This document shows, in pieces, positions 20,229 through 41,850 of a stretch of DNA of 64,000 nucleotides; position 1 is the stretch's first letter, and each line of letters begins with the position of its first letter. Source of the stretch: Symbiodinium natans (Eukaryota; Sar; Dinophyceae; Suessiales; Symbiodiniaceae); the NCBI GenBank assembly GCA_905221605.1, contig CAJNDS010002207.1, positions 448,501-512,500 of the forward strand. Reading direction: 5' to 3'. The notes beneath the pieces were generated by a model. It worked only from the letters and a program-made list of their open reading frames with translations, was not told the DNA's origin and did no database searches. The position numbers and the translations under genes were made by a program.

Positions 20229-23200
20229 CTTCGTGGCTTGAGTGATTTGATGAATCAAGAGTTGAGTCATTTTGGATTTTGCCTAGGGCTTATAGGGTTC
20301 ATATGTCGTGTTTTCTTTAATTGAAGAATCATAGGCTTCTTCGTGGAGGCTTTCAGGCAGATGCAGTCCAAGCACAGCCGTGCAAGCCGAGCCTTTGTTT
20401 TGGCTTGTACAAGATGCCACACTTTTCCCGGCCAAAGGTCGTAATCTATGCAGATCTACCTATTAGCTTTTGGAAGCGATTCGCGTGCTCTGCTAGTCCA
20501 TGTGCTAGCGGAGCTTGCAAGTTTGCCTGCGCCTTGGCGAACGGCAATTTGGTGGCCCAGCACCATGACCACCCCCGACCCTCAAGCGACTAAACCTGCA
20601 GAGCGTACACTGAGTATGTAATGAGTATACCTCACCATTTGACTGGCCCGCGAAGCTCGATTGCCCTTGCCTCTGTTCGCCAAGTCTAGGGTCTCCTAGG
20701 CCTGCCAGCGCCTTTTCTGCCATCGGATAGACAGCAGAGCCCTGGAGCTTGCTGAATTCGTGGCACCCATGCTCCTGGAGGAGTAGGGTCCTCAAAACTG
20801 GAGACCTGGAGCATGGTGATACAGTGATGCCCACAGTCGAAGTTGATTGTGTTGTCGCAATGCCCATGGGCAATGTCGAGTAATCAGGCTTTGGCATTTC
20901 GTGACAGATGTGATAAGATCATACACACAGGACTTTCCTGGCCTTCCAGGTCGTGCATCCGACGGAGGATCCCAAAGAGACGAATTCACGTGATGTGGTT
21001 GGGCGTGGCCCCGACTGATGACACTGTCACCGGTGGTGCGTCGAGGCGAAAATCGTGTTTTCAACCAGGCAGCCATCATCGGGAGGTTGCGACTCCCAAA
21101 ACTTAACGAAGGCTGGAGACCATGAGTTCTAAGTTGTATTGTTTCGGCCGTCGGGAGGCCCCACTGTTCGGAAAGTTTCCGGCACGTTCCTTGTTGATTC
21201 ATGCAGATACCGACAGCCATGCCGACTGATGACAAGCCCAGATCTTTGCACAAACGACCGGTATCGTCATGACATCAAACTTCTCCAATACACTGTACTG
21301 GAGCACCCTGCCATCAAAGTAAGAGTGAGAGCTGCCGACCGAAGACCCCATGTCGCTGAGCCGAAAGTGAACAGGAAGCCCGGCGTAAGCCCCTACAAGC
21401 AGCTCGGACCCAACACATCAGGAACCCCCTCTGCCAAAGCTTTCTTCGCTACGTCCGGCCAGCCAGAGGTTCACACTGCCAGCATGAGAGGCATCACCGA
21501 TACACTGTATATGCTATACTATACACAATAGCTTGACTTGATACGTCCCATGCTCAGATATGTAGCTGCAAAAGAGCGTTCAACTCGGCAACTGGTGCGA
21601 AGAAGTGGCTAGTTTTGAGGGTCACAACTCAAGGATGCCGGCCAGGTTGGAGTAGAGAATGGGAAGCTCAAGGGCGGCCTCTGGCTTCGTAAAGTCCGGC
21701 TCGGTGACAAGCCCAGACCAATGGTTTAGGTAGTTTAGGCGTTGACGCTTTGGCCGAGTTCATTTCCCAGTTGTCCTGCATGGGAGCTTCGGTGCTTGGC
21801 CTGGGTGGAGACCAGCGGAGACCAGCGCACGCATGTGGACAGACTGGCGCGGTCGGCAATCGAGAAGGCCGCAAACGTGGCTTTTGGCCGCTGAGTTGCA
21901 GTATTCCTCAGATCCTGGCAGCCTAGGCTGGAAGCCTTACAGGTTTTTGGTAGGCCGACGCCTTCAAGGCTGCGAATCCCAAACCCCATGCTTAAAGAAA
22001 CCAGGAAAATCCCGACCCGTGGCCGATGGGAACACGTTGGCAGGATGCGTCTTCGAAGCGCGAATGCAACAGGGAACCTGATCGAGAACTGAAACTTCAG
22101 CCGAGGTGTGCAGCTGTCTCCTGGCAAGTTCAGCAGAGGTTCGTCCGCACATCCGGTGGGCCCAGAGCAACACAACGCCCTCTGGCAAAGGGAAAGCGGG
22201 TCAGGCTCATGCCGCGTCTTTTTCTCTAGCTTCCTAGCGAGCGGTCTTGTCAGTGTTCCAACTCGGGAGACCCCCAATCTCCACAGACCAAGCGGCTGAG
22301 TACTGTCCGCGACCAGCCTGGTGACAGTGCCATTCAGTGCTATTTAGCCAAGCGGAACCAAGTTCGCTAAGAGGAGTCCTGAGTTGAATTCTTTTCCATG
22401 GAGAACCAGCGGGGTTGAGGATCGACTGGTCAGGCACTTGTCCTCCAATCATCTCCAATCCCGTTGCCTTTGTAGGCCTTGCTTATGAACTAGTAAGAAC
22501 TCACAAGCCTTCTCTGGGTTTGCAGAATGGGCTTTTACATGACCATTGCCAGCAAAAACTTGACAGGGTGAGGGGTGGGGTTGTGTCGCAAACCCTAAGC
22601 CCCTACGCCGGCAGAACCCGCAAAAGGCAGAGCTAGGAATCCTTCCGAGGCTCTCCCTCGAGCTTGGTCCGCCGAGGGGGCTGAAGGAACTGCCACCCAG
22701 TCGCAGCTGGTTCAGCGCAGAAGCCCAAACTCCGGAACCACTACAAGGCTCTTCAGCCTGGTTGCCAAGAAGGTCCTTAGAGTCCTGACGGGCTTTTGAG
22801 GCCATTGACGTTTTGCTGGTCACCGCGGGCTGTTGTCATTGAAAACTCTGAAGCTCCGTTTGCAGATTCAGGCAGGGATTGCTTTTCGGGGCCGATTGTC
22901 GGGGTGCCCGCCAGCATTCAAGGAGAGCTTCAAATCCCAGGTTCGGGTAGTCTTCTGGCAAGACCGCACTCAGCTCTCGCGCGCACCCCTTGGTTTCACC
23001 TGTCGCTGTTGCAATTCCCGCTCCCAAGTCGCATTCCCAAAACATAACGTCATGTACGTATTGCGCTGTGCAGGACATAGCCATGACATGGCCATATCGG
23101 AGTATGTTGATTCAACCATGCAGCACCATGCAGCACCATGCAGCCAAAGTCGGCGGACCCCAAGGCCTGGATGTGCACGGGAGGAGACGCCTGCAGTGCA

Positions 23201-24074
23201 AGCCGAGTTTCGGCACCGCCTTTGCAAGCCAGAACTTACCGGGCCTACGGTTCTTGCAAGGGGTGCTATTATGGTAGTCTACTGCAATTTCCAGAACGAA
23301 AGAAGGCGTTACTTTGAGTTCTGAAGCCAAAATGTAGGTGCAGACTATTCGGGGCTTGGGCTTGAAAGTTTGTCAGCAATGCAACCACCTTTTCTTTCGC
23401 GTCTTTTAACACTTCAACAACATGCTTAGAACGTGCTTGGGGTGTTGGGAGCTGAGTGTTGGCCGTGCTCACCTCTGCTTGAGGTACGACCGCATTTCTG
23501 TGACCGCCAGCTGCGCTGAGACGGCGCCGGCAGAAGTGCTGCAATGGGAGATGGAGTTGCGGGAGGAGATGGGCATGTCGAGCGATTCATGCGCTTTAGG
23601 GTTAGGAGCTTGGGTCCAGGGGGGCTTAGGCCTAGAAGGTCCTGAAAAAAAGCCGGCAGTGTCTCGAAGCTAAGCTGCGGGATCCACACAAAGAAAGCCT
23701 TTTAAAAGCCTTGGAGAAGACCACTTCGAGTTTTTTTGGGCTCATAAGGGGGCTGAGAAAAGACGGCACCGGACCAGGATGTTCCCCGCAGCAGCTTTTT
23801 CAGCCCGGGGGCGTAGACGCCCTTGCCGACGGTTGTCAGATAGCTCTCGCCGGCTTTCTAGTGATTTTGAATGAGAGGTATGAAGGGATATGAAAAGGGT
23901 TTAGACTAGTTTATTGGAGGACATTCTGCCAGAGGCTTCGCGTTCGGAGCGGATGACTGGTCCAAGTGTGGGCGGCAGCACCTCTGGCCTGGTGCTCCTA
24001 CTGCGCAAGCGGCTCTCGGGCTGCGATCTGCCTGCGGTATATACTTATATACTGTATCCCTAGCAGTGCAGGCC
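20229..24074. other. Gene-free stretch between PFKFB and PDI-1
   Basis: Many short overlapping frames on both strands, none with a recognisable motif or consistent splice sites. It includes a 10-bp repeat at about 23115-23144. Upstream exons of PDI-1 could be hidden in its distal part. Confidence 0.45.
23115..23144. repeat. 10-bp tandem repeat ACCATGCAGC, three copies
   Basis: Three consecutive copies of the unit are visible. Confidence 0.85.
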
Positions 24075-24419
24075 CTAATGTTGACCTAGTAATAATAAAC
24101 CCCCCCCCCCCTTCAATCAAACCCCCCCAAATAGAGTGAGGCCCCTTTGAATAAGGATTCCTTTCCTTAGAGAGAATTAGAAAGGATCAGAGAGAATCAC
24201 TCAGGATTCCTTTCCTTAGAGAGAATTAGAGAGGATCGTTTGTTGGCGGTTTTTCTTGCTTTGTCTCCCTCTATTTTCTCTCCATAAACAAACAAAGAAA
24301 AACAGACCCCCCCAAAAAAACAAGCCCCGACTGGCGTACTTTATTTCCAGGGCTTTATTATTGCGGCCGGGACACCTGGCGTACTTATAGGGGCTTTAGT
24401 AATACTAGGTTAACATTAG
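24075..24419. mobile_element. MITE-like inverted-repeat element, about 345 bp
   Basis: The left end CTAATGTTGACCTAGTA and the right end, read in reverse complement as CTAATGTTAACCTAGTA, form terminal inverted repeats with one mismatch over 17 bases; similarity continues a few bases further. No transposase frame is inside. The interior has a poly-C tract (24100-24111), a duplicated 35-bp block (24154-24188 and 24203-24237) and a repeated GGCGTACTT motif near the right end. No clear target-site duplication was seen. Confidence 0.6.
24154..24237. repeat. 35-bp direct repeat inside the inverted-repeat element
   Basis: The copies at 24154-24188 and 24203-24237 differ at one position and begin with AGGATTCCTTTCC. 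Confidence 0.9.
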
Positions 24420-24958
24420 CATGTGTGGTACTCGCCTCATAAAGCAAGACTAAGACCAAGACCCTCAAATTGTTTTTCGCCGAAATTAAATATTTCCCAG
24501 GCAGCAAGATTGTTGCGTGAAAGTGCCCGCAGCGCTTCGCTGCATAGGGGTCACAGCTGAGGATTCAGCACCGATGGGACCGACCCTTTATGGACGAAGC
24601 TTCCTTTGGGCTGCCCAGGGACTGGAAGCGGGAAGATCGGAGTCTTGCTGCTGCTATCAGGACTTTGGAGTTGTGCAGTTATATCTGCATAGGAAAGGCA
24701 TAGAGAAGCACAAAATTGGGCAATCTGCTAGATTTGTTCTTTTGTGGTGGTTAAAGGTTTACTTTTGTTTGCCTAGGCTTAGCACATAATTTGAGAGGTC
24801 ACCCTTGTATTAGATTATACGTTATGTAAATGATCTTGGCTATAATACAAGGAACGCATCAGAACATGTAGCATCTATGGTCCACATATATATGTATATA
24901 TATATGTATACATATACGTATACACACATGACACGAACTTGCTGCACATGCTGATGGA

Positions 24959-25126
24959 ATGAGGAATCTGCCAGATGAGGACGAGGTTGAATTGCCCCGT
25001 GCATTGAACATCCGACGACTCAGCAGCAGAAGCCTCGAGGAGGTGGCAAGAGCTTCAGTCCTTGTCGTCGCCATGCGCTATCCCTGGTGCACGGCGTGTG
25101 AGGAAAAGGACAAGGCCTTTGTCAAG
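24959..25126 (+). CDS. PDI-1 exon: thioredoxin a domain, CTAC site
   Basis: Acidic lead DEDEVELP, then VLVVAMRYPWCTACEEKDK. The redox site is CTAC, not CGHC. ATG at 24959 is the first in-frame Met after a stop, but a CAG acceptor at 24971-24973 could be the real left edge. The donor is GC at 25127. Confidence 0.7.
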
Positions 25127-27703
25127 GCGCAACGTTTGCGTCCTGCATGATCTTGTTTTAACCCCCCCGACACATTTCACCTTATTGAGCAATGCTAATG
25201 AAGCCTTGCACCGCTTTTTGCACCATCCCAAGCCGCAGCCTCCAGCCACTCCACAAGAACAATGGAACCCTTCAGGTGAGCAAAGTAGCAGGTGCAAAGG
25301 GGGAGTTTGGTGACGTGGTGTTCGGTTCTCTTGACCTCCGGGAGGAGAAGGCAATTGCGAGGTGGGTGTGGGAAGATGGCTTGCACCAGTGTGCCAAAAG
25401 CAAGTGCCCCCTCCATGTCTTCAAGCCAGACGAGCCATTGAACGAGCCTTACACCTTTCAAGTGCAACTGCTCTACGAGATGGATGAGGCAGCCATGATG
25501 GGAGATCCTATGGCTGGTATGCCAGGTCACACGCCGAAGGGCCAAACCATAAAACCGAACTTCGACCGTTTTGAGAAGGATTTGGCCTTGCTACTGCCCA
25601 AAGCTGTCTCAGAGCTGCGCCCAGAAGAAGTTCCAGAGTTTCGCCGGCGCTGGGACACGGCCGTCATCGGAAGCGGGGTCAACGCCACCGCCTTCCGCCG
25701 AGCTGCCCGGGAAGTTCGGGGAACCGCGACCTTTGCGTTGGAGTCCAGCGCGCCTAGCCCACTTCAGAGTGCATCCATACCCAGAATACAGCTGTGGAGG
25801 TCTGAGACTTTGGAGATTGGCACTGGTCCGCAAGAGCCCGTGCCATTTGATGGGAGCCTTACACACTTGAACGCAAGCTACCTGGCACACTTCGCCCGCG
25901 TTCACGCTCAGCCACTGCTCCAGAATTACACCTGGGACCTGAAGGATGAAATGGGAGCAATTGGGATGCCAGTGGGAGTCCTCTGGGTGAATTTCTCCGA
26001 CACGAATCACACCAACGCCACCAACGCTGCCCTTGCGGCATTCCGTAGTCTCTGCAGCAAGCGCCGAGGAACCAATGCCTCGCGCCACATCCTTTGCTGC
26101 GTCATGGACGGTTCCTATGCTTACTACCAGCGCGAGTACGGCAGTCACGAGCCCTATCCCTTCCCTTTCTTCGGCGTGACCCGAAAACTCGGATTTGGTG
26201 CTGGCGACCGTTTTGGCTATCCCTTCAGGGAGCCGGTCAACCACACGGTGCTCGGCTTCTTCAGCAGCCCGAAGCGCGCCGTCAAGGACATGTCCTCCTG
26301 GGTCGGTCGAGTATTGGCAGGGCGCGTGCCACCCTCCCATGAATCTGGGCCTTTATTCATATTGAGTAGTTTTGAGTATGATCTTGGGATCTTTTTGTGG
26401 CCGTGCAATTAAAATCCGCTTGTCGTTTGCTCTCCGGCAGCCGCCTGCTCACCGCAGCCACTGAGAAGTCAGAAACGAGTCATCATGGAGGGGGCCCTAC
26501 TGACCTCTTGAGAGCTGGCCTGTAGCCCTTTGTGTCTCTATGTCGCCATCTCTGTAGGTTCTTGTTGTCTTGAATGAATTTCAGTAACAATACACCCTCT
26601 CTTGCTCTCCCTTTCGCTCTCTGTCTCATTTCTCGCTCTTGATGGTTGTCTTTTCTCAGAAATTAAGGAGTCCGGCCTTGTGACGAACAGCTCCAAGTGG
26701 CTCCGGGGCCAAGTTTTAGAAGTCGTCTGGAAAACTTACCAGCGCGAGATCAATGGAAGCACGGCCGATGTGCTTCTGGAGCTGTACGATGATCAGCGGA
26801 AACGGCAACACATCTCCACTGCAGTCATGGATGTGCTGGCCAAGACGCTGAAGGACTATGCAGACATCAAGGTTGCACGCATGGAGGTCAGTCAAAACTA
26901 TGTGCCCGCCCTGTTCGGTCGAAAGCAGTTCTCCAAAGAGACGGAGTACTTTTGGACATTCGACTGAACTCGCATAAGCCTACGGAACATCGGAATAGGT
27001 TTGCGTCAGACTATGCAATGTTCCGTTGACCAATCAGGGCCCATGCCGGCCACAGTTACGAAGGTGCAGGTTTAAAGAATGCATTCAAGAGAAGGCGGGG
27101 CCAGGGCGATCTAGTTCGAACTTGAGGATTGAGAACTGTGGCGTATTCCCTACACCCGAAGGCCCCAAACCCTTTAGAAAGCTCAGCCAAGGGTACCTCC
27201 CAGCATTGCTAGCGGAGAGTGGACGCCTGGCGTGCCCGTGAAATACCCCGGCGAGGCTGAAGAGGCGACGGTCGCGAAGCTCCTGAAGTGGCGCCCAGGC
27301 TTATATAGGGCTTACAGGGTGCGAAGGGCTGCTTAGGGTTTAGGGTCGATGTTTAAGGTTGTTGGCATGTTGGTATCAAGGGATGCGAATTTAAGTGGGG
27401 GGCCCTGGAGAGAGCACCCAAGGTTCAAAAAGCACACTATGTCACGTTGGTCGCTGAAGGAGGCCCTGGAAGCTTCCTCGGACATCTCTGAGGAGGTCCC
27501 CTGAGTTTTCCAAGCCAGCACCCTGTCGCTCTGGCTCGGGCTGCTAACACCGCCCTGGAAATTCAAGAAGCCACAACAAAAGACCCTGAAAGCAGGTCAT
27601 GGGCTACGCAAAGCTCCAGCAACAAGCGGACGACCGCGCGGAGGAGGACAAGCAGCAGATGATTAAGAAGATGATGACGACGCTGAAGAAGGACGGCCTT
27701 TAG
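24959..27703 (+). CDS. PDI-1: protein-disulfide-isomerase-like, multi-exon
   Basis: Modelled exons are 24959-25126, 25276-26323, 26660-26924, 27192-27273 and 27596-27703, about 556 residues, joined in phase by four GC..AG introns. A thioredoxin a-type domain carries YPWCTACEEKDKAF. A long middle (b and b' domains) follows, then a second a'-type domain (VVWKTYQ, DVLLELY, KVARMEV, a cis-proline loop in GRKVPPS). In the a' domain the CxxC site is absent: after LLELY comes DDQRKRQ. The middle has many N-x-S/T sequons, which suits an ER-lumenal protein. The C-terminus ends KKDGL, close to a KDEL-type retrieval signal. No signal peptide is visible; the first exon may actually begin at 24974 with upstream exons not found. 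A paralogue lies immediately downstream. PDI family membership is firm; substrate and activity are unknown. Confidence 0.78.
25276..26323 (+). CDS. PDI-1 large exon: rest of a domain plus b and b' domains
   Basis: A 1048-nt open exon. It starts VSKVAGAKGEFGDVVFGSLD, parallel to the VSFAVLDAREEK part of the paralogue, and ends WVGRVLAG. Sequons include VNAT, LNAS, QNYT, VNFS, HTNAT, TNAS and VNHT. A GC donor at 26324 joins to 26660 to give VLAG-QIKESG. Confidence 0.78.
26660..26924 (+). CDS. PDI-1 exon: a' domain without CxxC
   Basis: VVWKTYQ, DVLLELYDDQRKRQ, then KVARMEVSQNYVPALFGRK. The thioredoxin fold pattern is kept but both cysteines are replaced. Read-through would reach TGA at 26967. 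Splicing at the GC at 26925 instead restores the cis-Pro loop from 27192. Confidence 0.72.
27192..27273 (+). CDS. PDI-1 exon: a' domain cis-Pro loop and last strand
   Basis: VPPSIASGEWTPGVPVKYPG then EAEEATV. This fits the G-F-P-T...G...P-V-x-Y-x-G-E pattern near the end of PDI a' domains. The donor is GC at 27274. Confidence 0.65.
27331..27346. repeat. TTTAGGG-like telomere word
   Basis: TTAGGGTTTAGGG is visible in the final PDI-1 intron. Confidence 0.75.
27596..27703 (+). CDS. PDI-1 terminal exon ending KDGL
   Basis: VMGYAKLQQQADDRAEEDK, then a Lys/Met-rich helix and the end LKKDGL before TAG at 27701-27703. The charged helical tail with a KDEL-like end suits ER retention. It joins in phase after EEATV. 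It could instead start another gene (Met at 27599), but the stop and the next gene's exons argue against that. Confidence 0.6.
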   Translation, partial: VMGYAKLQQQADDRAEEDKQQMIKKMMTTLKKDGL

Positions 27704-28157
27704 GATTCGAATACAAGGTCCAAGGATGTCCGAAGGGCCCAGAAGAGAGATAAGAGTAAGCAGGCGATGAGCTGAGGCGCTCCCAGGAAGATTCTCAAAG
27801 AATTCATGACCTATTGGAGGTTCATGGGCAGTTCATGCGGGTCCATAAGCGGCGGCAGGAACCCCCGCAGGTGGAGGTCTGAGGGGAGTGGGCTGCAGAG
27901 ACCCAAAGTTGCCTCTTCAGGCCCACTTAGTGGATGTCCGTCCCCGAGTGCTTCTCTGGCACATCATCCGCTCAGGGGTGCCTGTTCGGCTGGGTGGGTG
28001 CCCATTCAAGGCTGTCCGCGGGTGTGCCGGGAGAATAGAATGCGATGGGTGCTTGACATTGAGTATGTAAGAGTCCTCCGAGCCTGCGGTACACCTACTG
28101 TAGCAACATGGAGCATCTGCGCCACAGTGGAGGCTGCACAGGTGCAGAAATGTGCAG

Positions 28158-28274
28158 TATCTGGTCCCGCGCGTCAAAAAGAGGAACGACCAAGCCCCCC
28201 CTGAGGAGAAAGGCATGGTGGACGTCGGGGAGATGATGGGCCTGAAGAAGCCTGGCTGGGACGATATGCCCATA
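28158..28274 (+). CDS. Candidate exon, N-terminal part of coiled-coil/CS gene
   Basis: YLVPRVKKRNDQAPPEEKG then MVDVGEMMGLKKPGWDDMP. The reading is clean, with a TGCAG acceptor. The donor is uncertain; GA after GGCTGG is one option. Confidence 0.5.
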
Positions 28275-31200
28275 TGAAGGCTTTACCTGAACTCTGCAGT
28301 GCGGAACTCGTGTGCTGGCGGTCAAAGTCATCTGTGCTGCGGGCCTTTCACGCCTTCAAAACGGGCACCCTGACATCGAGATCTCCTCAAAATAGGAGCA
28401 GTGTCGGCGAAATGGTATGAGGCCTTCCCTCCTCAGCCCCCGAAGATTTAAAGTTGCTCAAGCGATCTCAAGCGATCCCAAAGTTCTACATTCATAACGT
28501 GGAACTTATAACACCTTATAGCCATGGAAGCAAAGGAAGGCAGCCGACGCCCTGGGAGAGGAGACTCCCCGCAAGAGCGGCAAGGGCGAGGCCAAGAAGC
28601 GGCCCGGTCCAGTTTAGGGCAAGTGGGTTTAGGGTTTAGGGTAGTTTTTTGTAGTGGTCGCAAGGTATGTTGCCAGTGCGAGTAAGCCCAGTTTTGCAAC
28701 GGGCTGATGAAGTTGGGCCATCCAATATCAGCGTGTGTGTCTTATGGCCTATGTTTAGGTGCACAACAAGGCCACATCATTGGATCAACTGCCATACAGG
28801 GAGACTGGACGTGGGGCTGTGTGGAGTGCGACGGCCGAAGTCTCATCTAAGCCATGGTTTCGAAAAGTTCAACGTTCCATGCCTTCAGCTAAAAACTTTG
28901 TGTTGGCAAAGATGCCGAACCGCATTGGGTGTGTAGGTAGGACTCGAGGGACGGTGTCCCATCAAGCTTGGGTCATGTTCATGTAAGCCTCAGGGTTCTC
29001 GCAGCTATTCGAGTTCTGGCTTATATTTGCTTAGGTTCAGTTTAGGGCTCCGTTCTTGAAGGTGAAGGTTCCAGGTCCTTAGCACCTCATCTAAGGAAAA
29101 CCACTGGTGTACCTGCCGAAGGTCCCGGGGCTTGCCAGGGTTTCAGTGAACCGATGGCCCGGCCCAAAGAGAACAGGGAAGCGAAGAGCAGGAAAACGAC
29201 TTAGCGTCGAAGCGAGAACTCATCATCAGGGGTTTCCGCGTGCTCAGTCAACACATACCCCAAGCCCATGCCTCAAATGTTCCTTGCGGGGTCAGTTCAG
29301 AATGGTTGAGTACCAAGAGCTGCCTCAGAGAGGCCAGGCAGGAAAAGTTGTGTTGAGCTGCGCGCAGTCTAAGTCAAACGTAGAAAGGGATGTAGCCCAC
29401 ACCCGAGCTCGCCTCTCAGCCACTTCGCAGAAGATGAAGAGCAGAAGCGAGCAGCCAGAAGAGCCAAGCTTCAGAAGGAAGAGCAGAGGCTGCATCGGCA
29501 CAGGGTCGGAAGGAGGGGGGCGGGGGAGTGGATGGTGGATGCGCACTGTCAAAATAAAGGGTCAAGCTCTTGACCCCAAGCTCAGAGAGAACAAGCTCCT
29601 GTGCGAAGGACAATTGAAAAGCAGGAGGGATGTGAATTCTTAGAGCCCCCGAAAGCACCCGCCTCACACTAGCAGATGTCAGGTGACCACCCAGGTGACC
29701 ACCCAGGTGACCACCCAGGTGACCACCCTTAAACCCTACCGATTAAAACCTCACCCGAAGAAGCTTGAGAAACCAAACCTCAGCACCCAAGAGATGAAGC
29801 AAAGACTAAACGATTGGGTCGGAGGCAAAAGGAGATCGCCAAGAAAGACCGGGAGAAGAGGAAGCGACGGCTGGAGATGGAGAAGCAACGCCAGGCTGTG
29901 CTCTCAACTTTGAACTTTAGGGGCAAAGGTTTAAAACGGTTTTTCGCGTGAGCGGTGGCCGAGAAGTAGGGTGGTTGGTGCTTCTGGGTTAGGCATCCCA
30001 CGAGCCCCATGCCGTGTAGCACAACACGACATGGGGCTCGCTCGAGCTTTTCAACTTAAGGAGAAGAAGAAGCTCGAGGAGCAGCAGCGGCGCGAAAAAG
30101 CGGCCAAGGAGGCCGAGGCGGCGGCAAGCTGAGGCTTTGCGTTTGATCTTTGCGAGCTTACTTTATGGTTTGTTAGATTTGGGGGCCTCCGCGATGGTAC
30201 CTGCAGAAGGCGGAGAGAGAATTTGTGCACGTTCCCATTCTTTATGGAGCTTGGATGTCAAGACGCTTGATTTCGGCTGCGGGTCGAAATCAGTTCACAG
30301 CCCAGTATAGAAGATTCTCGAAGAGCCAGGCAAGGTTCCGAAGAGCCCCGTGCGTGGTCTCATTGAGGTCCACGTGGTCCTAGGGTTTCCAGGCAAAGCA
30401 AAACACCTCATACTTTCAGGCCATCGTCAAAAGCAGTCTAGACACCGAGCCTTCAGACTCATTACACAATCCCCTACGCCCGAAGCTCCGTGAGGAGAAG
30501 CGTCGCAAGAAGGAAGCCGAGAGGCTGCGACAACCTGCCACGCCCCTGCCCCTCGGCAAAGCCGAGCAAAGGACTTCAGCCCTGAAGCTCTTGTCTGTGC
30601 GGAGTATTTGGCGAAAGGGAGACCGGGGAATCCGAAAGTGCGCCAGCCGAATGAGAACCGTCGTAGCTTACTTCCCGTCGTGGAAAAGTGAAGCAGCCCA
30701 ACGGAAGAAGGTTTCAAGTCGCACGCGCATCCCCATGAAAACACAAGAAAGAGCGAGAGAGAACGCGATTTGCACAGCTCAGGTTCACTTGGGGCCAGTC
30801 CAAGGATCAGATCCGCATCTCGGTAGCTATCCCGAAGATGCATTTGGACACGGTCAATGTGAGCTTGGGCATAGACCAGGCGAGCCAGGGCGCCCAGAAA
30901 TTGGTACCCCAAGCTGGCTGTAGCTCATGTCTTGCGCTTTTGGGCACGCCACGACGCTTGTGAACGGGGGCTTCATGCCTTGTTGAACGCCCAGAATCAC
31001 AAGCCCAACTTCAAGCTCCCGCTAAGCCCCTACCCTTCTGAAGCTACTGCATTCCACAAGTCCCAACTGAACCAGGTGGACGTCCGAGGTCACGACTGGC
31101 AGCGGCGGCCCTACATCTTAAGCTTCGAGCTCCGAGAATTTGTTGTCCCTGCAAACTCCTCGTGGGCGGTTCGCTACTCGGAGGCCAGGGCGTGCGTGTG

Positions 31201-34200
31201 GAGGATTTACGGGACCAGGTCTTTCCCAAGTTTGCCTGTCGTCAATCATGTTGCCGCAGGAGGCCGACCCCCAACCAGATGGAGTTCTCCTCACACTGCA
31301 AAAGCAAACTCCCCACCGCTGGGACCGCCTGGCGCAAAACCACACGGCCGTGAAAAGCTTCCTCAAGAAGGATTGGGTCCAGGACCCGATGCTTCAGACT
31401 GCCATGAACCATATACCAGAAGCTGGTGGTCGTGTGTTGTCTAGGAAATCTTCTTCCATGCCTTGCCAGGGATGTTGCTGTAAGCACAATGAAGCGCAGG
31501 ACGATGGAGAACTTGAAGAAGAGCAGGAAGAGGTGGACCTACCCTCTGGACAGAACGTGAAGAAGGTCACAGTTGCCAATTTAGACCGGCTGCTTCAGCA
31601 TCATAGCCTGGTGGTGCTGGCTGCGCGTTTCCCTTGGTGTGACAAGTGCAAGGAGAAGGACCGTGAGTTCACAAAGGCCGCTCGCATTAGCAGAGACAAG
31701 GATCACTTGGACATGGTGTCCTTCGCTGTCCTGGATGCCAGGGAGGAGAAGCATTTTGCAAGAGATCATAATGTGTCCTGCACAGACAGCTGCGACCTTC
31801 TCCTCTTCAAGCAGGACGAGAGGGACGAGCCATACATGGTGCCAGGACGTCGCTTCGCTGAAGAGGTGCAGATTGATTGCTACAAGCACCTGTTGCCAGT
31901 GGTCAGTGAAGTGGCCAACAAGACACATTTTGATCGGGTGACCACTGCATTCGACACTGCCATTGTGGGGTTTTTCCACTTGACGAAGGGCGAGGACCCT
32001 TGGTATCCTCGCTTTCGGGCGGTGGCCCGGCAGCTTCGTGGCCATGCGCTCTTTGGGGCCGCCTTCAACGGACTCGTTCCGCAGGCAGTGGGACTTCTGA
32101 AGGGGTACCCATGCACCCCAAAATTCCTTACTTACGCCACAGCTACCCTCAACATCCCTCAACCTTCGGCCACGTCGTCGGTGGTGTTGTTTTTGTGCAG
32201 GACATGGGTATCGACTGGGACCCTGAGTCCGTGCCGCTGCAAGAGGCTGGTGGGGACGCCCAACCAGCGAGGCCGTTGGTGCTGCTCTTCAAGCCAAAGG
32301 AGTCGGTTTGAAAAGCAGCTAAGGCTTCCAGGGCTTAAAAGGGCTAGGGTCATCAGGCAGCTAGGTTGACGGGATTGCGGCCCTGCTGATTCGTGAGGAG
32401 TCCAGGGGGTCGAATTGTTCCGCATGGCCCACAAATTAACCAGCTAAGAAACATTATTATGTCGAGGTAAAGCCCACTGAAGGAGCAAAGGCACGTGGAG
32501 TTCACTGGCGAACTGACCTTGGACACTGGACCATTCTCAAGCAGTTGTCTGTTCTATTTCTGTATGAAAAGCTTGCTTGTTTTTGTTCTGCTGTTTCTAG
32601 AGGATTCAGTCCCGTAAGCCCAAATTCTCATGCAAGGAGAAGCTGGCCCACTTCTCCAAGGTGCTGAGCCTCCCACTGGTGTCACAGTACACACCCGAGG
32701 GCCGTCAGAAGTACCAGGAACTCAAGGCACCTGGGCACGCTGCATCACGCTGCGCCCCTTCTCATCCCTTGAAGTTCATGGCTAAGCCCTGAAAATCAGC
32801 TCGTAGACTCCCGAAAGCCCGAAAAGCCCTTCGATTAGAAGCCGTAGAGTGCCGCAAGACATCCTTTTGCCGGGAAGGAACTTCCGCTTTGCATGTTGGC
32901 TTGCAGTGCATGTGCTAGTGTGGCAAAGTAGATGTGCGGGCGAAAGCAGTTCCAAACGAACCCTAAACGCCCTAAACTTTGAACATCCTTGAGATGCAGA
33001 TAGGTTCCGCTGGGCATGCTGTGGCTGGATGGCGAGGGTGAGGGTGAACCGACCAACCAAGCAGCCGAGGAGGCCTTGTGGTGAGGGAGGACTAATGGGG
33101 TTTAGGGCGTTCCGCACCAGCTATAACACGAAATCTGGCTACCAAAGCACGTAACAGGCTTGAAGGGCAGAAGAAGAAGAACCCTTTGCAGGTTCTAAGA
33201 CGCCTGGCGCTGCGTTTCTCGGGCCATCTGGTCTTCGTAACGCTGAACAACACACGCGATGGGTCTCTTGTCAGCTCGAAGTTGCGGTGTTTAGGGTTGT
33301 CGAGACATGAGGCCGTGTTGAGAAACATTTCCATGTCTTGGCTGGCCATTTCATGCTTTAGGGGGCCCGATATCACATTTTGAGTTTATTGGTTTTGTTG
33401 GCTTAGGGCTTTGTTGTGACACTGCCTTTGGCAGGATGTTGCGGTTCTTGTGGTTCGAACATACATGACCCCGCCTCTCCACCTATAAAGTACAAGAACA
33501 GAAACACATACAGACAAAGTCATACAAATAAGAAGAACACCGCCATAGATGTCTATAAACCATGACAATCAGGTATGGTGCGCACATGGGTGTCTACATT
33601 TTGTATGCTGACATATATAGGTATACAGTGGAGAGGGAGAGGGAGGGAGGGAGGGAGATATAGAGAGAGAGAGAGAGATCGTGGGCATGAAGAAGAAGAA
33701 GAAGAAGCAGGGGTTCAGCAGATGGTCACATATCCCAACAGACAAACCTATTCCAAAATCTGCTCTCTCAGGTTCCTGATGCGACCTTTTGGCCTTGACC
33801 CCCGGCGGGTGCCTGCCTTTGGCATAGCTGCAGCCGAGGCCGGATATAAACGGGGCAAGCTTCTGCGGTTTAGGCCCAAGATGTTTAAGGCCCTAAGGCC
33901 CTATAGCTGGTAACCCCTATAGCTGATAAACCCCCATTCGCAAAAAATACCCCAACAACATTTCTGGACGGTCACATGCAGAGCTGAGATGATTTGCAGT
34001 CAAGCTGAAGGGACGTCGGACAGCTTACCTTTCGAAGGGCTGGGTTTGTTGTCTAGCGACCGGAGGGCTTGCCCAGCACAAGTTGCTGAGCTCGTTGTCA
34101 ACTTATAGCTAGCAGTTGACGCGTGTTTGTACTCAGGTCTGTTGATGTAGGCATTCAAAAGGGGCTGCCTGGGTCGCGTCGATTAAAGTCGCCGGGCTGC

Positions 34201-35335
34201 GGCGACAAGCATGAGACCAGACGCACAAACAAACACATACTACATGAACACATCATAGAGCACGAGAATTCCTAAACCTCTACGTCGACCGAGTATCAGC
34301 GATGCTGCAATGCTCAGAGAGTGAAAGCGTGGATACCCTGCAGTTAAGGGCTGGAGGCAGTTGTCTAGATGTATGCAAGGACTACAGCAGTGGCTAGTGC
34401 CAGAAAGACGCAAACTGGACGCAAAGGGACAACCAGGAATGGGATTGCCGTGAAGGGCAGGTGTGTCCATCACTGTCCATCCCTTCGCCTTGGAGCGAGG
34501 AACCAGATGCAGCACGGTTCGCGCTGGATGAAGCGACGCTCGGAATGAGTGCAGATACCCGGGGTTTAGGGCCAGTCAAGGGTGCTTTTCACTCCGAAGA
34601 TCCGTTAGGGCATCCTGGGCATCAGTGGTGACGAACTTGTGCGCCGAGCCTACATGGCATCTATCATGCTTTCATGTTTAATATGCAAGCCTGCATCGCC
34701 AGCTCAACAGCTAGTGCGCCACATGACCCTTTCTGAAGAAAGAAACTGCCTGCCTATCTTGCTTGCTTGCTTGCTTGAAAAAGTTCGAAAATCTACGGCT
34801 GAGTTGTTTCTTCGTATCGTGACAGGTTTGGCTTCACGATGACTCCAAAGGGCCCGTCCCATCAAGAGACTCCTTCAACCTCGACCAACTTAAACGCGAC
34901 CCAGGTCCCCAGGTTTGCTGGCGAGAACCGGCAGCACCAGAAAAAACCGACTAACAACTCCAAGACCGAAGGTTCAAGAGCTGGGATGAGCTGACTGGTT
35001 TCTGGCGAGACACTGGCCGGGCGTTTGATCGCATCGACTCTTGGATTGCACTCTTGCGATGACGTACCTCGTGACCTCGTGCCTTGCTAGCGGCTAGCGG
35101 TTGTCCACTCCCGCGTTCCTACTATTGCCAAATTCAATGTTTTGTCACGCGCAAGCTGCGTGCAGGGCTGCCAACAGCAGCGACATGCCATGTTTCAAAG
35201 CAGGTTAGAAACGGGAAGCGAAGTGCGAAGTGTTATTATACTCAGCCACGACGACCACGGCCACGACCACGACTAAGACGACGATGACCACGACTACTGC
35301 TACTGCTGCTGCTACTCCTCCTCCTCCTCCTCCTC

Positions 35336-35370
<35 letters not shown>

Positions 35371-38300
35371 GCTACTACTACTGCTACTACTGCTACTACT
35401 GCTACTACTGCTACTTCCTGCTACTGCTGCTGCTGCTGCTACTGCTGCTGCTGCTGCGGCGGCGGCTGCCGCGTGTATTTCCCCATATTGGAGGCTGGAA
35501 GCCCTGTAAAGCCTAAACGCCCTTGACAACCAGACAGGCCTAAAAACTCTAAAGCCCGAAAAGGCCTGAAAGCCAGAAAGCCCTAGTAATCACCCTTCGA
35601 GCATGGATGTTCTGCGGAACAGATGCACATCTACCTCGGGCGTTATCATCGTTCGGGCCGGGCATGGATGCTCTGCTCAACGGATGCCAGTGACGTTATG
35701 AACTTGGTCCTCTGCAACGGATGTATTGTTTGACGCTTGGAGCCTTGGAGAAGCACGAAACCGTCAGGTCAGTTCAAGCCCAGACTCTCAACATTGTAGA
35801 ATGAGTCCAACTTTTTGTTTCGAAGCTTGCATGGCCGAGCACAAAGAAGTGCCGAAAGACAAGCATTGACAACCAGCATCGGCCAGGAGCGATTTTGCAC
35901 TTCGTTCCTGGAGGCAGGGAGCTTCGCAAGTCGAAGCTTAAAAAGCAAAACCCTCAAACATGCTAACTTTGCGAAACGATTTTGTGGGAGTGGGTTGCAG
36001 GGCGAGCCTTGTCATACCCACCTCATGAAGTATCAGATGAGTCCTTCACAGGTTGCTGAAGCTCCCCGACTCCCCGACAAAGAACAGAATCAGGTAGCAA
36101 AAGACGAAAATCTCCCAGGGCACCCTCGAAGCCTCCCACGAGTCTGCGGAGCTGCCGCCGAGCTACAGCTGGACGGGGCCTGGGGTCGTGCACGAGGCCC
36201 CCCTGAATCACGGATTCCGGCTTTGGGGAAGTGATGAACAACACCAAATCCCGAACAAGCTCGAGTGCAAAACTAGAAGTCCGACACCATAGAAAATGTG
36301 CGTGGCTTGTGGTGTCTTGCAGCAAAAACCAAGAGCAACATGTGCAAGCTCACTCCTGCTTCATAAGTAGAAGGGCGGACCCACGGCATGCATTTGTAGG
36401 CAAGATATCGGCAAGACACGGGAAACCCTCACAAAACCAAAAACCTCAATGAGCCCAGCAAGACAACACCAAGTTGTTGGGGTAATGGCATTTTCATCTG
36501 GACCCACCCCGTGGTTTCTTGTTACAAAACAGCGCACACTTCCCGATGCTTAGTGGTTTAACATTTAGTTTGGTGCTTTTGGATGTTTGCAACATGTTGT
36601 TTGCAAAAGGCGTGTTCCCCCTGCGAAAACGAAACAGCACGTGCATTTTTCAGTTGTAAGAAGCACAAATTCAAAAGCCCAAGGCAACACAGTTCCCACA
36701 TTCTCAGACAGTCTTCTGTTGGGTTTAGGATGCTGGAGTTGCTCTCCTCAGGTCCCTGCCCCACCACAACATCTCTTCGAAGACATCTCCCTCCTTTGTT
36801 TCTGTTCGGACGAGACGTGGGTCAAACTAGTGGTGTTGTGATTGAGTTGTCATGCAGCTCACCATCTCCGGTGCCGGCTTGAGTTTTGGGGTGTTGGCAG
36901 CTTTTGCAGGGCAAAAAAATGCGCACCTCGATTCAAGCAGGCTCGTTCTCGATTGATCGCCTCGAACGTGACCGAGGGTGATATAAAACGGCCTTGCGCG
37001 CTGAGTTTCACAACGCTGTCTGCAGTTGTGTCCAAGAGGAGGTGACGAAACTTTCGTGTGCAGGTTGTGTGGAAGACTTTCCGAGAGTCCGTCTATCGCA
37101 CGCAGAATGATGTTCTCCTGGAGCTCTATTCGCCTTATCGGCCACAACATCGGACTCACCTGATGGCAACTTGGCTTCATTTTTTATTTTGTGAAGTCAG
37201 TAAGCCCCAATCCTTCCACGGAGGCCCTTGTGCCCCGCCCCCCATCTTTGGCCGGATTGCGCAACGTGTAAGCTCCACGTGCTCTCGCCATCTCTCGCCT
37301 ATCTGCACCCGACTCGTGGCATTGACAAGCTCTTGGGCTTCGACTCTCACCTGCTCATAGACCCTTATGAGTATCCTTTAGAACAGTTATCAGCACATAC
37401 CATCGTTTAGCACTCCTCGACACTTCAATCATGGGTCGAAGCCAAAAGGTCCAACGCCTGAAAGCGGTTTTGGTACTCGTTCGAATCTTAAGTTGTGGGT
37501 CCTGTGTTTCCCTGATGTTGAAGGTCCTAGAGCTCGTGGCTGAAGCCTTGGCAAACTTGACCACGCTCAAGGCCCAAGAGCTGCTTAGACATGGGTTCGC
37601 GATGTGTATATGTAGAGGTCGTAGACGTGAGGAATCGTCTCGGTGACAGGTTCCCTTCTGATCTCGTCCCACAGTATTTACAGCAACCCATTTTCCAAGG
37701 TGACTCGTTAGACCATGATAAGGGCATAAACGTCAATAGGTACCGTACGACACTGGCTTGAAATAGGCCTCTGGTGGTTGCTGTCAGGAGTTCCAAGAGT
37801 TGCTGAGAAGGCCGTTCTGGGAACCTTTGCATGCATCTTTATAGGCTCAGGAAGCTTGTTCCCGATATTTCCCGACTCCGCAAGTTCTACAAGTTCCACT
37901 GACAAGACGTCCGATGCTTCACCCATGGTAGGTGGCCCGCATGGACACTGCCAACAACTACGTGCTTCCAGAGTTTGGACTCAAGGCGCAGTGGCTGGGA
38001 ATCGATTTGGGCTGGCTTGGGGGGGGGGGGGGGGGCGGGGTTGCACCTTGGCTGTTCTCTTCCAGCTGCAGATGAGAACCACAAAGTCATGCGAGCAAAC
38101 GGGAGTTCAACTTCCGATGGAAGCTTGTCGGTAAGCTTGGTAGTGGATCTTTGCCGACCGCTCTGGGTGCAACCAACCACCTCCTACTGTACTACTGGAA
38201 GAGAAATCCGAGCGCATGGAATGTCAAACTAAAGCCTGCAACCCTTGGCTCCAGCTGGAGGACAAAGAGAAGGCCTCAACCTTCTTCTTCGTTACTGCCG

Positions 38301-38500
38301 CTCCCGAGAAGCACCGACGGCCGAGGCAGTTGTGGCACCAAGCCCTGACACCGCCACCCAAATGGGCCTGCAACAGCTCCATGATACTCGTATGACATCG
38401 TAGGCCTAGAATGTGGGCATTGTGGAATCACAATTTCGAAGGCGCCTGGCCACGAAGCTGGGACGACCCGAGGTCTACCCTGGGCTCAAAGCAAGCGAGT
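28158..38500 (+). CDS. Charged coiled coil + CS domain + PDI-like region (PDI-2), multi-exon fusion
   Basis: Exons at 28522-28606, 29431-29488, 29825-29894, 30061-30123 and 30486-30523 encode a Lys/Glu/Arg helix and join in phase to a CS domain at 30783-30903, 31076-31180 and the start of 31260-32084. CS domains (p23, NudC, SGT1) bind chaperone clients or HSP90. The same 31260-32084 frame runs on into a thioredoxin domain with FPWCDKCKEKDREF, then PDI b/b'-like exons (32201-32299, 32601-32726, 33192-33255) and an a'-like part (37064 onward, 37932 onward) whose CxxC site is again missing (LLELYSPYRPQHR). An optional in-frame GT..AG intron at 31377-31499 would give KKDW-DDGELEEEQEE. Exons between 33.3 and 37 kb and the C-terminus are not resolved. 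The fusion could also be two genes with a missed stop and start. The first listed exon is the least certain. Confidence 0.6.
28522..28606 (+). CDS. Coiled-coil/CS gene exon, basic helix
   Basis: WKQRKAADALGEETPRKSGK then GEAKKRP. The acceptor is TATAG. The GT donor at 28607 joins in phase to 29431 as KKRP-EDEEQKR. Confidence 0.6.
28625..28643. repeat. Telomere-like TTTAGGG words
   Basis: GGGTTTAGGGTTTAGGG lies within an intron. Confidence 0.85.
29431..29488 (+). CDS. Coiled-coil/CS gene exon
   Basis: DEEQKRAARRAKLQKEEQ. The GC donor at 29489 joins in phase to 29825 as KEEQR-QKEIAKK. Confidence 0.65.
29681..29728. repeat. 12-bp tandem repeat AGGTGACCACCC, four copies
   Basis: Four perfect consecutive units, inside an intron of the coiled-coil/CS gene. 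Confidence 0.95.
29825..29894 (+). CDS. Coiled-coil/CS gene exon
   Basis: QKEIAKKDREKRKRRLEMEK then QRQ. The GC donor at 29895 joins to 30061. Confidence 0.68.
30061..30123 (+). CDS. Coiled-coil/CS gene exon
   Basis: EKKKLEEQQRREKAAKEAEA. The acceptor is TTAAG. The GC donor at 30124 joins to 30486 as EAA-LREEKRR. Confidence 0.68.
30486..30523 (+). CDS. Coiled-coil/CS gene exon
   Basis: LREEKRRKKEAE plus a split Arg codon. The GC donor at 30524 joins to 30783 as KKEAER-FTWGQ, linking the helix directly to the CS domain. Confidence 0.68.
30783..30903 (+). CDS. CS domain exon 1
   Basis: FTWGQSKDQIRISVAIPK fits the Y-x-W-x-Q-T-x-x-x-x-x-x-V-x-x-P start of CS domains, followed by VNVSLGID. A canonical GT donor at 30904. 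Confidence 0.78.
31076..31180 (+). CDS. CS domain exon 2
   Basis: VDVRGHDWQRRPYILSFEL then REFVVPANSSWAVRYS. It holds the hairpin and the S-S-W motif of CS domains. The best join to 31260 uses a GA..AG intron (31181-31259) flanked by a GGAGGCC direct repeat. Confidence 0.75.
31260..32084 (+). CDS. Exon: end of CS domain, acidic linker, thioredoxin domain, start of b domain
   Basis: DGVLLTLQKQTPHRWDRL and FLKKDW close the CS domain. An acidic linker (ELEEEQEEVDLP) follows. The thioredoxin domain has LVVLAARFPWCDKCKEKDRE, and then MVSFAVLDAREEKHFA and LRGHALFGAAF. The same linker-plus-thioredoxin pattern occurs in PDI-1. An in-frame GT..AG segment at 31377-31499 may be spliced out. A GC donor at 32085 follows VPQ. 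Confidence 0.75.
32201..32299 (+). CDS. PDI-2 exon, b domain
   Basis: DMGIDWDPESVPLQEAGG then PLVLLFKPK. Strand pattern typical of a thioredoxin-like b domain. Joining to 32601 implies a GA..AG intron. Confidence 0.68.
32601..32726 (+). CDS. PDI-2 exon, start of b' domain
   Basis: KLAHFSKVLSLPLVSQYTPE fits the L-x-x-F-x-x-x-x-x-L-P-L-V-x-x-Y/F-T start of PDI b' domains. The acceptor is TTCTAG and the donor GC at 32727. Confidence 0.72.
33192..33255 (+). CDS. PDI-2 candidate exon, b' strand
   Basis: VLRRLALRFSGHLVFVTLNN resembles the b' helix-strand that ends in a hydrophobic L-x-F-V-x-x. GC donor at 33256. Confidence 0.5.
33630..33710. repeat. (GGGA)n/(GA)n/(GAA)n composite microsatellite
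   Basis: GAGAGGGAGGGAGG, then a GA run, then about six GAA units, arranged as at 8369-8421. Confidence 0.9.
35232..35462. repeat. Trinucleotide microsatellite block (ACG, CTG, CTC, CTA variants)
   Basis: About 230 bp of shifting trinucleotide units. It yields poly-Ser, poly-Ala and poly-Thr frames in all readings, so the open frames over it are artefacts. Confidence 0.95.
37064..37125 (+). CDS. PDI-2 exon, a' domain without CxxC
   Basis: VVWKTFRESVYRTQNDVLLE then LYSPYRPQHR. Parallel to VVWKTYQ...LLELYDDQRKRQ of PDI-1. The active-site cysteines are absent. The donor is uncertain (GA near 37126 is possible). Confidence 0.7.
37932..37988 (+). CDS. PDI-2 exon, a' strand VARMDTANNYV
   Basis: VARMDTANNYVLPEFGLK matches KVARMEVSQNYVPALFGRK of PDI-1, including the V-A-R-M-D strand typical of PDI domains. 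A GC donor near 37989 is likely. Confidence 0.68.
38019..38035. repeat. Poly-G tract (17 G)
   Basis: Uninterrupted G run inside a PDI-2 intron. Confidence 0.95.
38151..38230 (+). CDS. PDI-2 candidate exon, cis-Pro region
   Basis: LPTALGATNHLLLYYWKRNP then SAWNVK. It has the L-P-T pattern expected at the cis-proline loop and a following hydrophobic strand. Splice sites are unclear. A further candidate at about 38476-38506 reads VYPGLKASEFV. Confidence 0.4.
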
Positions 38501-38670
38501 TTGTTAGGTCACGCCTGCGGTTTGGGCTTTGAGATGCATAAGTGATGTTTCATTTACAGACTTTGGCAATTGTGGATTCTTCCGGGGCTGCTTAGGACCT
38601 TAGAGTCCCAGCTGGCGCTTGCAAGAAATAGGCTGGTCACTCACAGGGGCAGCATTCTGTATCATTCCAC

Positions 38671-38850
38671 ACACACACACACGGAGACTCCTGCTCTTGC
38701 TGCCCTCGCTCTCCCTCTCCCTCTCGCTCTCCCGCTCTCTCTCTTTCTCTCTCTCTCGCGCTCGCTCTCTCTCTCGCGCTCTCTCTCTCTCTCTCTCTCA
38801 GTCTCTCTCTCGCTCTCGCTCTCTCTATCGCTTTCTTCTTCTCTTTCCAG
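38671..38850. repeat. (CA)n followed by a long CT-rich microsatellite
   Basis: A short CA run, then about 150 bp of CTCTCT/GCTCTC. Predicted Leu/Ser-rich or Arg/Glu-rich frames over it are artefacts. Confidence 0.95.
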
Positions 38851-38869
38851 CACTCACCCTTCATCATAT

Positions 38870-40460
38870 GCAGTTGAGTATGCTCGTACTGACCATTGTA
38901 CGACAAGCGCATAAAGATGTAGATATGTAGTCACCCTCTCCCCTCCATGTCGACGCTACAATTCTGCGTACTTTCATGTACGAAAACACTGCAAATGCCG
39001 AGAAAATCGTACTCGTTTAGTGATTGTGCGACTGTGTTATAGTTATAGAACACGTCATACATCAAATATGTACATGCAACCGCATTTCGGTTAACAAAAA
39101 CATGAACTGATTATGTATATTCCGAAAGCTAGAATACCTGGAAGACGTGGCAGTTTTACCGTCGGCACCTTACAAACCTCTCGTTCTTGTGTTTTGACTG
39201 TTGGTCTAGTAGACCAAAAACATGGTGTCATGAAAACAGGATCCCAACTTTTGTGCGCATGGCTCTCTTTCTCTCATGCAATGACTCCTACCTCCCGCTA
39301 CCATTCCTACTACTACTACTAACCATAACAGTAGTATTGGTGTCACTTCTGAAGCTAATTGGTTCCGCAGAAAAATCAGTCCGCTGCGTTGTGGGGGTTT
39401 ATGCAGAATCCAAGTCTTGCTTGCGGCGTTTGTCCCAATAGCTGTCCTTCTTGCTCACTGAAGATATGAATTAATGCAATATCAACAAAACCAGTATGTA
39501 CCGAGTTTCCAATTTCTATGCCATGAATGTTGCATTGGTGTGCTTGAAATGTAACAGGTGTTTCATCAGCATGTATCAGCATGTAACTTGCACGGAAAGG
39601 CAGTACGGAACGAATTGCTTAGCAAAACTGTATTATTTGTATCGAAACACCTGAAAACACCCGAGGCTTCAGATTCTTTAGGTTTGTGAGTTTCCGGGCA
39701 CCAGAGCCAAATGATAGAATACCTTTCTGGGAGAATCATGTACTTTGAAGCTTGTCTACTCGAATTGTGTGTTTTCCACATAACATGTACGGTATTTAAT
39801 TCGTACACCAGAAGTGTGTCACTATTATGTAGGGAAAACTGCTTGTATTCAAATCAAAATTTAGCACATGTTAGACGTGCTCAAGCCGTCTTTGATTAAG
39901 AATTCTACGTCTCTAAGAGAAGTCTGTGATTTTATGCTTGTCTGCGCAAACATGCGCTTCAGACGTAATCTACAAACAAGTGGTGTTTCATTAGTACGTC
40001 AGCAGTATTTCACGATTATGTGATGACAACTGCTTGTATTACAATCAAATATTTAGTGCACATGTTAGTCGTACTCAATTTGTCTGTTTTATGTAGTACT
40101 CATCTCACTGATGTTAAGCTATATTAGTGTTCTAGAGACGGAAATCACATACAATAATGATGCATTCAGTATGAATTGATTTTTCCACGAAACTAGAAGG
40201 AGCACAATCATGATTTTATGCAGTGAATATATAAATAAAAGCTCGGATAACTCACTAGCCTCTTTCGTATAGTATTAGTCAACATGATGCCCAGTACAGG
40301 CATATGTTTCTAGACAAGCACACTATTTGCCTAGGCTTGGGACAACCACTACTTCTCTAGAAACAGAAATACTTTTTCTATAACGTTGCATAATTTGTCT
40401 GAATTGCCTAGCACCATCACTGTGCTGTTTGTGCCTTGGTTCTTGAACAACTCCCAAACA
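38870..40460. other. AT-richer island, no gene recognised
   Basis: Base composition is visibly more AT-rich than the flanks and short frames lack coding character. It contains a diverged direct repeat (39820-39897 and 40011-40090). It begins just after the CT microsatellite. Confidence 0.6.
39820..40090. repeat. Diverged direct repeat, about 80 bp, period about 191 bp
   Basis: The copies at 39820-39897 and 40011-40090 share CTGCTTGTATT, CACATGTTAG and the spacing between them, with scattered changes. Confidence 0.75.
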
Positions 40461-41218
40461 CTCAATCAGCTTTTTGAAGCCCTCAACTCCTGAACCGCAT
40501 AGGAAGGCTGATTTTCATGACAAAGTTGATTCCACTGGAGTACAAGCTGGTCAAGTGAATCGAAAGCGTAAGCAGAAGTGTAAGTCTGTGTCCGTGTCTG
40601 TGTCTGTGTGCCTGGTGTGTTTGTGTGTGCACGGTGTTTGGTGCTGCTTTTTGCTTATGCAAACAAACAAGTGCCCATGAGACCTTGTGAGTTTCAAAAG
40701 TCGAGGTTATGCTTGCCAGCCTGATGCTTCAGGGAATGTTGGAGGGTTCTCCTGTGTGGCAATGCTTCCTTCGAGGAGCTCCCGGCACAGCTTCTGCGCT
40801 TCGTGCACCGCGCCCTGTCTACACTCAAGGGGTTTTTGTGACCCTGAGAGGTGTGTCAGAAGTTTATCTCTCAGCAAGTCCACGAACTGATTACTTCGCG
40901 TTGCGGTTCCGGTTCTGTTTCGGTCAGATTCCGCAAGCGCAGTTCCAAATCGTTCATTTCTAAACTCAGAAGAATCCCGACAGCCCCTAGCCACATCCTA
41001 TGTGGTCGCAGGAGAGACCCGAAGCCAAGAGTGGGACTTTGCGGAACGCTCGGCTTGGGTGCACCAGGAGGCCTGCGTGCGCATACTCCATCCCGTACGA
41101 ACCTTTAAAATTGATGCGAAAGAGCTGTAGACCCGGAATGCCCCAACATCCCCCCCCCAACCCCCCACAAGCAAAGCTGATGACTGCTAGAGGGCGAGGA
41201 GGCCTTGAGTGCCAAGAG

Positions 41219-41304
41219 GCCCAGCGGCGGATCCGACGGCTCCGGGCCCTGGAGAAGGACTACGAGAAGAAGATGCAGGATGCGGGCGCAAAGGGTTCCG
41301 AAAG
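41219..41304 (+). CDS. Candidate exon, charged coiled coil
   Basis: AQRRIRRLRALEKDYEKKMQ then DAGAKG. Heptad-like, strongly charged and clean in one frame. It may share a gene with the exon at 42017-42094, or be the tail of PDI-2. No family recognised. Confidence 0.45.
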
Positions 41305-41784
41305 GGTGCCAATACAGTTCCAAAATGTGCTTGGGTCCAGGTAAGGGACCGGGAATAAGGCAAGACATGACTTACCGCATTACGTGTCCCAGAGAGAGGG
41401 AGACAGAGAGCGAGATGTAGTCCTTCGAAAGAAAGCCTAGTCGAAGGAAGAGACTGTCGACTGGTTTGTGGCGCTGGGGTGTTGAAGTAGTCACTGAGTT
41501 AAGGGCGAGGGGTCCAGCTACAGCAGCCGAAGAAGACACCAGACGGGTTGCTGAAGCTCGAGCTTTTGCGCTCGGGGTTTGGCAAGTTTCGTTGTATCGA
41601 GGAGTGCCGCTCCAAAGCCGATTTCCTGCTGCGTGGTGCACCTCAGTATACTTGCAAATGGGTGGAAACAGCAGGTGAACCGTGGACGCCCACTGAGAAA
41701 AAGGAACAATATCAGCAAGAAGAACAAAAAAACACCAGCGAAGGGTGCTACGAAAATACAGAGGTCCCGGCAGAGTGAGTTGCC

Positions 41785-41850
41785 ATGATGCAGTTGGTTA
41801 GCACTCCAGTCTGCCTCGTCGAGAAGGATATCTTGGCGGTTAACCCGAAG
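41785..41850 (+). other. tRNA-like fragment (A-box-like), possible SINE relic
   Basis: TGATGCAGTTGG followed by TTAGCACTCCAGTCT resembles a tRNA D-arm and internal A box. GGTTAACCC 50 bases downstream is a poor B box. No cloverleaf can be folded, so it is not a working tRNA. Confidence 0.2.

Follow-up and report, generated by a model that had tools for sequence, protein, structure and literature searches.

We analysed 64,000 nucleotides of Symbiodinium natans DNA (assembly GCA_905221605.1, contig CAJNDS010002207.1, positions 448,501 to 512,500). This whole stretch is called the window; coordinates refer to it and the features described are on its forward strand. Exons for a CS domain, as found in co-chaperones such as p23, stand directly before a protein disulfide isomerase (PDI) module with a CDKC active site. 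A diverged sister PDI lies upstream on the same strand. Neither PDI copy has a CxxC motif in its a' domain. A preliminary description had placed the CS and thioredoxin domains in one predicted protein, with no mention of the sister PDI, the a' domain lacking CxxC, the N-glycosylation sequons or a hydrophobic stretch in another frame before the PDI. Both domains, and their order, stand. We lean slightly towards a single gene and give a CS-PDI fusion an even chance; the earlier argument from an open exon proved weak. We infer a single transcript, a location in the endoplasmic reticulum (ER) and all function from the sequence.

A CS domain follows Lys/Glu-rich exons

Seven exons had been proposed to join in phase with an exon at 31260, and they do. 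The model exons are 28522-28606, 29431-29504, 29832-29897, 30061-30123, 30486-30523, 30783-30879 and 31076-31183, plus the exon from 31260. Their joins introduce no stop; the donors are GT or GC and the acceptors AG. Since such splice sites are frequent, in-phase joining alone is weak evidence. GC donors make up four of the seven, at sites chosen to build the model. GC/GA-AG introns are described as frequent in Symbiodiniaceae in a passage of PMC11453091, and GC and GA donors are also mentioned in part of PMC7789003.

Where a percentage is given, codon use of the stretch was scored and ranked against background windows. Percentages give the share of these scoring as high or higher; hence, low values are coding-like. 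The model begins with a Lys-rich exon (28522..28606; PWKQRKAADALGEETPRKSGKGEAKKRP) and continues with Lys/Glu-rich helix exons. Codon scores are ordinary at 29431..29504 (29.0%), high at 29832..29897 (0.7%), 3.2% at 30061..30123, where the scored stretch ended in a stop codon, and 1.0% at 30486..30523, which ends KKEAE(R) at a GC donor. The exons at 29832 and 30061 are outliers in Lys/Glu content. A filter for such content on both strands of the 64 kb passes nine clusters. Two are these exons and, among the others, three overlap simple repeats. Separately, a coding-like stretch at 28155-28274 (+; QYLVPRVKKRNDQAPPEEKGMVDVGEMMGLKKPGWDDMPI) may belong to the CS gene as an additional exon further upstream.

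The CS domain comprises an N-terminal exon (30783..30879; FTWGQSKDQIRISV...), a middle exon (31076..31183; RPYILSFELREFVVPANSSWAV; 3.4%) and an end (31260..31388; GVLLTLQKQTPHRWDRL...KKDWVQDP) lying in an open reading frame (ORF), with a codon score in the top 1.5%. The spliced model matches Pfam CS (PF04969) with E 4.9e-05 and 24.7 bits, above the gathering cutoff of 21.3 bits. A join made by eye, rather than at checked splice sites, gives 7.1e-06 and 27.4 bits; two other joins fall slightly below the cutoff (20.0 and 20.3 bits). Unjoined, the ORF containing exon 6 (the N-terminal CS exon) reaches E 0.025, and exons 7 and 8 lie in stretches that have no Pfam CS match. The identification hence depends on the exon join. 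The Pfam alignment ends at position 68 of 78, and the last CS strand is our reading beyond that point. A PDB search with the 20.3-bit form, as a single sequence, returned no CS chain at E <=10; its sole match was not a CS protein.

A PDI module follows the CS domain

The thioredoxin domain with CDKC noted earlier is confirmed. Pfam Thioredoxin matches 31260-32084 (6.4e-06) and the ORF at 31122-32366 (1.6e-05). PDI chains from the PDB align with the a and b domains of this module, here copy 1 (ORF residues 145-325; best E 1.2e-09). Copy 1 therefore has what marks the PDI family, an a domain with CxxC and PDI-like sequence. Its first part, 31500..32087, encodes an acidic stretch, the a domain with PWCDKC and the start of b; it may equally well end at a GC donor at 32084. 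Part of this stretch, 31560-32084, belonged to the training data of the codon model. A predicted structure of 31260-32084 was uninformative (mean predicted local distance difference test score 30.9).

The extent first given for the protein, 28522..32084, was too short, and the copy 1 gene seems to extend to about 38 kb. The next exon is at 32201..32305, followed by a b'-like exon (32601..32729; LPLVSQYTPE) that matches Thioredoxin_6 below its cutoff (0.018-0.022). Both are placed by the exon model. Two probable b' pieces, with unsure edges, were read at 33004-33081 and 33192-33254 by comparing frames with copy 2 by eye. An a'-like domain without CxxC (37058..37985; VVWKTF...DVLLELYSPYRPQH; VARMDTANNYVLPEFGLK) was detected with copy 2 by tblastn (E 0.001 and 1.5). 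Codon scores were 5.2%, 1.1% and 0.9% for 31500-31532, 32204-32308 and 32616-32735, and 10.0% and 12.6% for the two a' pieces. Nothing convincing as a C-terminal ER retention signal was seen in 37000-45500.

A sister PDI lies upstream

Copy 2 starts at 24980, 6.5 kb upstream of copy 1, and runs to about 27300. The first part of its a domain (24980..25133, edges by reading) carries PWCTAC in place of PWCDKC and matches copy 1 by self-BLAST (1.5e-10). A long exon covers the end of a to b' (25292..26368, edges approximate); over the a-to-b' stretch typed from both, the copies share 36% identity. The a' domain (26660..26964; DVLLELYDDQRKRQH) has a self-BLAST match (7e-05) and a weak PDI alignment. 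Its 3' edge is unsure and it perhaps continues near 27.2 kb. Joined, copy 2 reaches 15.4 bits for Pfam Thioredoxin, below the 23.5 cutoff. At a threshold of 0.1, no Pfam family matches its 407-residue ORF. The best PDB match is also weak (E 0.1, over a and a'). Hence, copy 2 is assigned to the PDI family by homology to copy 1. At 27608-27703 (+), a charged peptide (AKLQQQADDRAEEDKQQMIKKMMTTLKKDGL) has KKDGL at its stop (~27.7 kb), possibly a C-terminal tail of copy 2 with an ER-retention signal.

The a-b-b'-a' order is pieced together from both copies: a-b is aligned in copy 1, a and a weak a' in copy 2, and b' is weak, below cutoff. The second catalytic CxxC is absent from a' in each (DVLLELYDDQRKRQH in copy 2, DVLLELYSPYRPQH in copy 1). 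A frameshift in copy 1, causing apparent loss of CGHC, was considered and rejected; copy 2 has no CxxC at the same place. PDI relatives with a single active site are known. Therefore, the missing motif excludes the PDIA1 type but not the PDI family.

Directly upstream of copy 2 is a peptide resembling the CS end (24557..24673; LRIQHRWDRPFMDEASFGLPRDWKRED..., with QHRWDR...LPRDW), a possible remnant or exon. Among non-self matches in the window it ranks first, with a score of 42 that none of 2171 null windows equalled (shuffle p 0.008 within 24000-24980). It has no Pfam match. CS exons N and M were also considered in this region, among them a look-alike spotted by eye at 23482-23598 (EVLQWEMELREEM; codon score in the top 2.2%); alignment gave no support and they were dropped. 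Aligned as DNA, the regions upstream of the two copies do not rise above background (105/127 and 860/2171 null windows as high).

N-glycosylation sequons point to the secretory pathway

Copy 2 has 10 N-glycosylation sequons in 504 residues. Shuffles give 1.6 and none of 5000 reached 10. Copy 1 has 2 (p 0.046), or 3 for 8 Asn when the b' pieces read by eye are included (p 0.018). The serpin of the same window, taken as control, has 0 sequons for 10 Asn. This richness of the PDI copies points to a PDI module in the secretory pathway. The joined CS region has 3 sequons for 3 Asn (p 0.00075).

One gene or two

No stop interrupts the frame from 31122 to 32366, so that it passes from the end of the CS domain into the thioredoxin domain, as first described. 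CS and PDI share this frame and are just 111 bases apart. In that interval we see neither a start codon nor a gene boundary, and it looks too short to us to hold a CS stop, a 3' end, a PDI start codon and a signal peptide. A candidate phase 0 intron runs CAG/GACCCG...GCGCAG/GACGAT (slashes mark splice points), with an alternative donor, TGG/GTCCAG, at 31377. Donors at 31377 and 31383 both keep phase with the acceptor at 31499 (GCGCAG/GAC) and connect KKDW or KKDWVQ with DDGELEEE. The CS-end-like peptide before copy 2 and the sequons at all three asparagines of the joined CS region likewise favour one gene.

Several observations weigh against a single gene. The link is 37 codons long, a length at which 13034 of 42455 background windows (30.7%) are open, and its codon use resembles background: of 2616 open background windows, 93.1% equal or exceed its score. 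By part, the figures are 40.9% of 5408 windows for 31389-31430 and 98.2% of 4039 for 31431-31499. The single continuous coding exon proposed earlier is hence not sustained, although the frame is indeed open. A read-through link would also bring two asparagines outside sequons, and the sequon test of the CS region was picked after the pattern had been noticed. A signal-peptide-like stretch in another frame, +1, stands directly before copy 1 (31411..31479; IYQKLVVVCCLGNLLPCLARDVA; hydrophobicity p 0.08), followed by GTAAGC. A scan for ATG-initiated hydrophobic starts, limited to one-exon starts, covered 26900-31500 and 23000-24980 without a hit, and so gave none for a fusion either. As for the CS-like peptide before copy 2, its p weakens to 0.033 over a wider 22000-24980, its codon use is neutral (22.1%) and alignment finds no other CS exons upstream of that copy (csM p 1.0, csN p 0.87); short ones could have escaped detection at 36% copy identity.

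Because codon use in the link (31383..31499) is like background, read-through is unlikely and an intron more natural. We regard an intron at about 31383-31499 as more likely than a read-through linker. The same observation suits two genes on one strand: first a coiled-coil CS protein of the cytosol or nucleus, then a secretory PDI of the ordinary kind that carries its own signal peptide. The CS gene would merely be caught between tandem PDI copies. The PDI module next door does exist without a recognisable whole CS domain and, being rich in sequons, copy 2 requires a separate ER signal. A hydrophobic stretch in the +1 frame lies before each copy (YQKLVVVCCLGNLLPCLARDVA; GKIGVLLLLSGLWSCA) and has a phase-0 GT after it; aligned with each other, the two stretches score 21, a figure with no null for the pair. 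In dinoflagellates, unidirectional gene clusters are usual, according to part of PMC7245778. However, no ATG precedes either stretch in its open frame, including that at 31411-31479, and neither is significant for composition (p 0.08 for copy 1, 0.28 for copy 2). The copy 1 stretch has neutral codon use (53.2%) and, with its GTAAGC donor, could join the PDI frame only through a 20-base intron. Space for a gene boundary is also little. We consider two genes a serious contender, at somewhat less than an even chance.

A degenerate or misassembled 5' part of copy 1 would make the junction a functional gene boundary of neither kind. The non-coding-like link and the lack of a detected PDI start codon speak for this reading. 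Set against this, codon use is coding-like in the CS exons (1.5-6.4%) and in the copy 1 exons listed above, with the a' pieces weaker at 10-13%, and the exon model required no frameshift. We think a broken junction improbable.

A single CS-PDI gene would encode a Lys/Glu-rich helix followed by a CS domain and then a PDI module (a-b-b'-a') in which only the first thioredoxin domain retains CxxC. The CS exon would be spliced across about 31383-31499 to the acidic start of the PDI module. That module, possibly with the CS domain, would be located in the secretory pathway. The CS domain may act as a p23-like clamp, keeping clients or a chaperone beside the active CDKC site. From domain roles, the redox-dead a' domain may serve in binding, so that CS and a' would hold clients for the single active a domain. 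We judge unlikely a further reading, in which the CS domain works in the lumen of the ER, in one covalent chain with a disulfide isomerase and encoded by a single tandemly duplicated gene.

Context of the locus

By its sequence, the window resembles the intron-rich nuclear DNA of a protist, probably a dinoflagellate. TTTAGGG is enriched in the 64 kb (21 matches against 6.3 expected); a passage of PMC11453091 gives this as the dinoflagellate telomere repeat. Counting both strands, 11 of the 21 matches fall at 28613-34571, in and around the CS-PDI locus. The spliced leader has no match in the window at <=3 mismatches, nor its 15-base end at <=2. Searches of viral contigs and genome contigs gave no confirmed relative. 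Elsewhere on the forward strand are a serpin in a single open frame (45540-46658; Pfam 6.9e-73), a piece of a 6-phosphofructo-2-kinase gene (9620-10582; Pfam 1.1e-10 over 30 residues) and a protein kinase piece towards the window end (63301-63999; Pfam 6.6e-09). An AT-richer stretch at 39690-40093 (+) holds two diverged repeats about 300 bases apart (translated similarity 57% over 30 residues).

Discussion

Cytosol and nucleus are the known sites of CS co-chaperones, and the ER is that of PDIs. The usual PDI active site is CGHC. Compared with PDIA1/PDI1 (a-b-b'-a'), copy 1 aligns over a-b and copy 2 weakly over a and a' (E 0.1). Both copies differ in having no CxxC in a', in their CDKC and CTAC sites and, for copy 1, in the CS domain directly upstream. 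The joined CS domain resembles those of p23, NudC and Sgt1 in exceeding the Pfam cutoff, and the order of W..L and KDW after the last CS strand is similar to that in p23. Unlike in these proteins, a long charged stretch precedes the domain and PDI follows; one joined form matches no solved CS chain (E <=10).

In HACD3/B-ind1 and NCB5OR a CS domain is joined to an ER-associated enzyme. They differ from the layout here in the partner and in having CS on the cytosolic side. Our literature searches, with eukaryotic protein and domain-architecture databases outside their scope, found no paper on a CS plus PDI layout.

If there are two genes, a CS gene lies between the members of an ordinary tandem PDI pair, and the locus cautions against reading fusions into the open frames of intron-rich protist DNA. 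A covalent CS-PDI protein, if true, would either put the CS fold to use in the lumen or bridge two folding systems. In the luminal case, a folding clamp and a disulfide catalyst would be combined in a single protein of the ER lumen.

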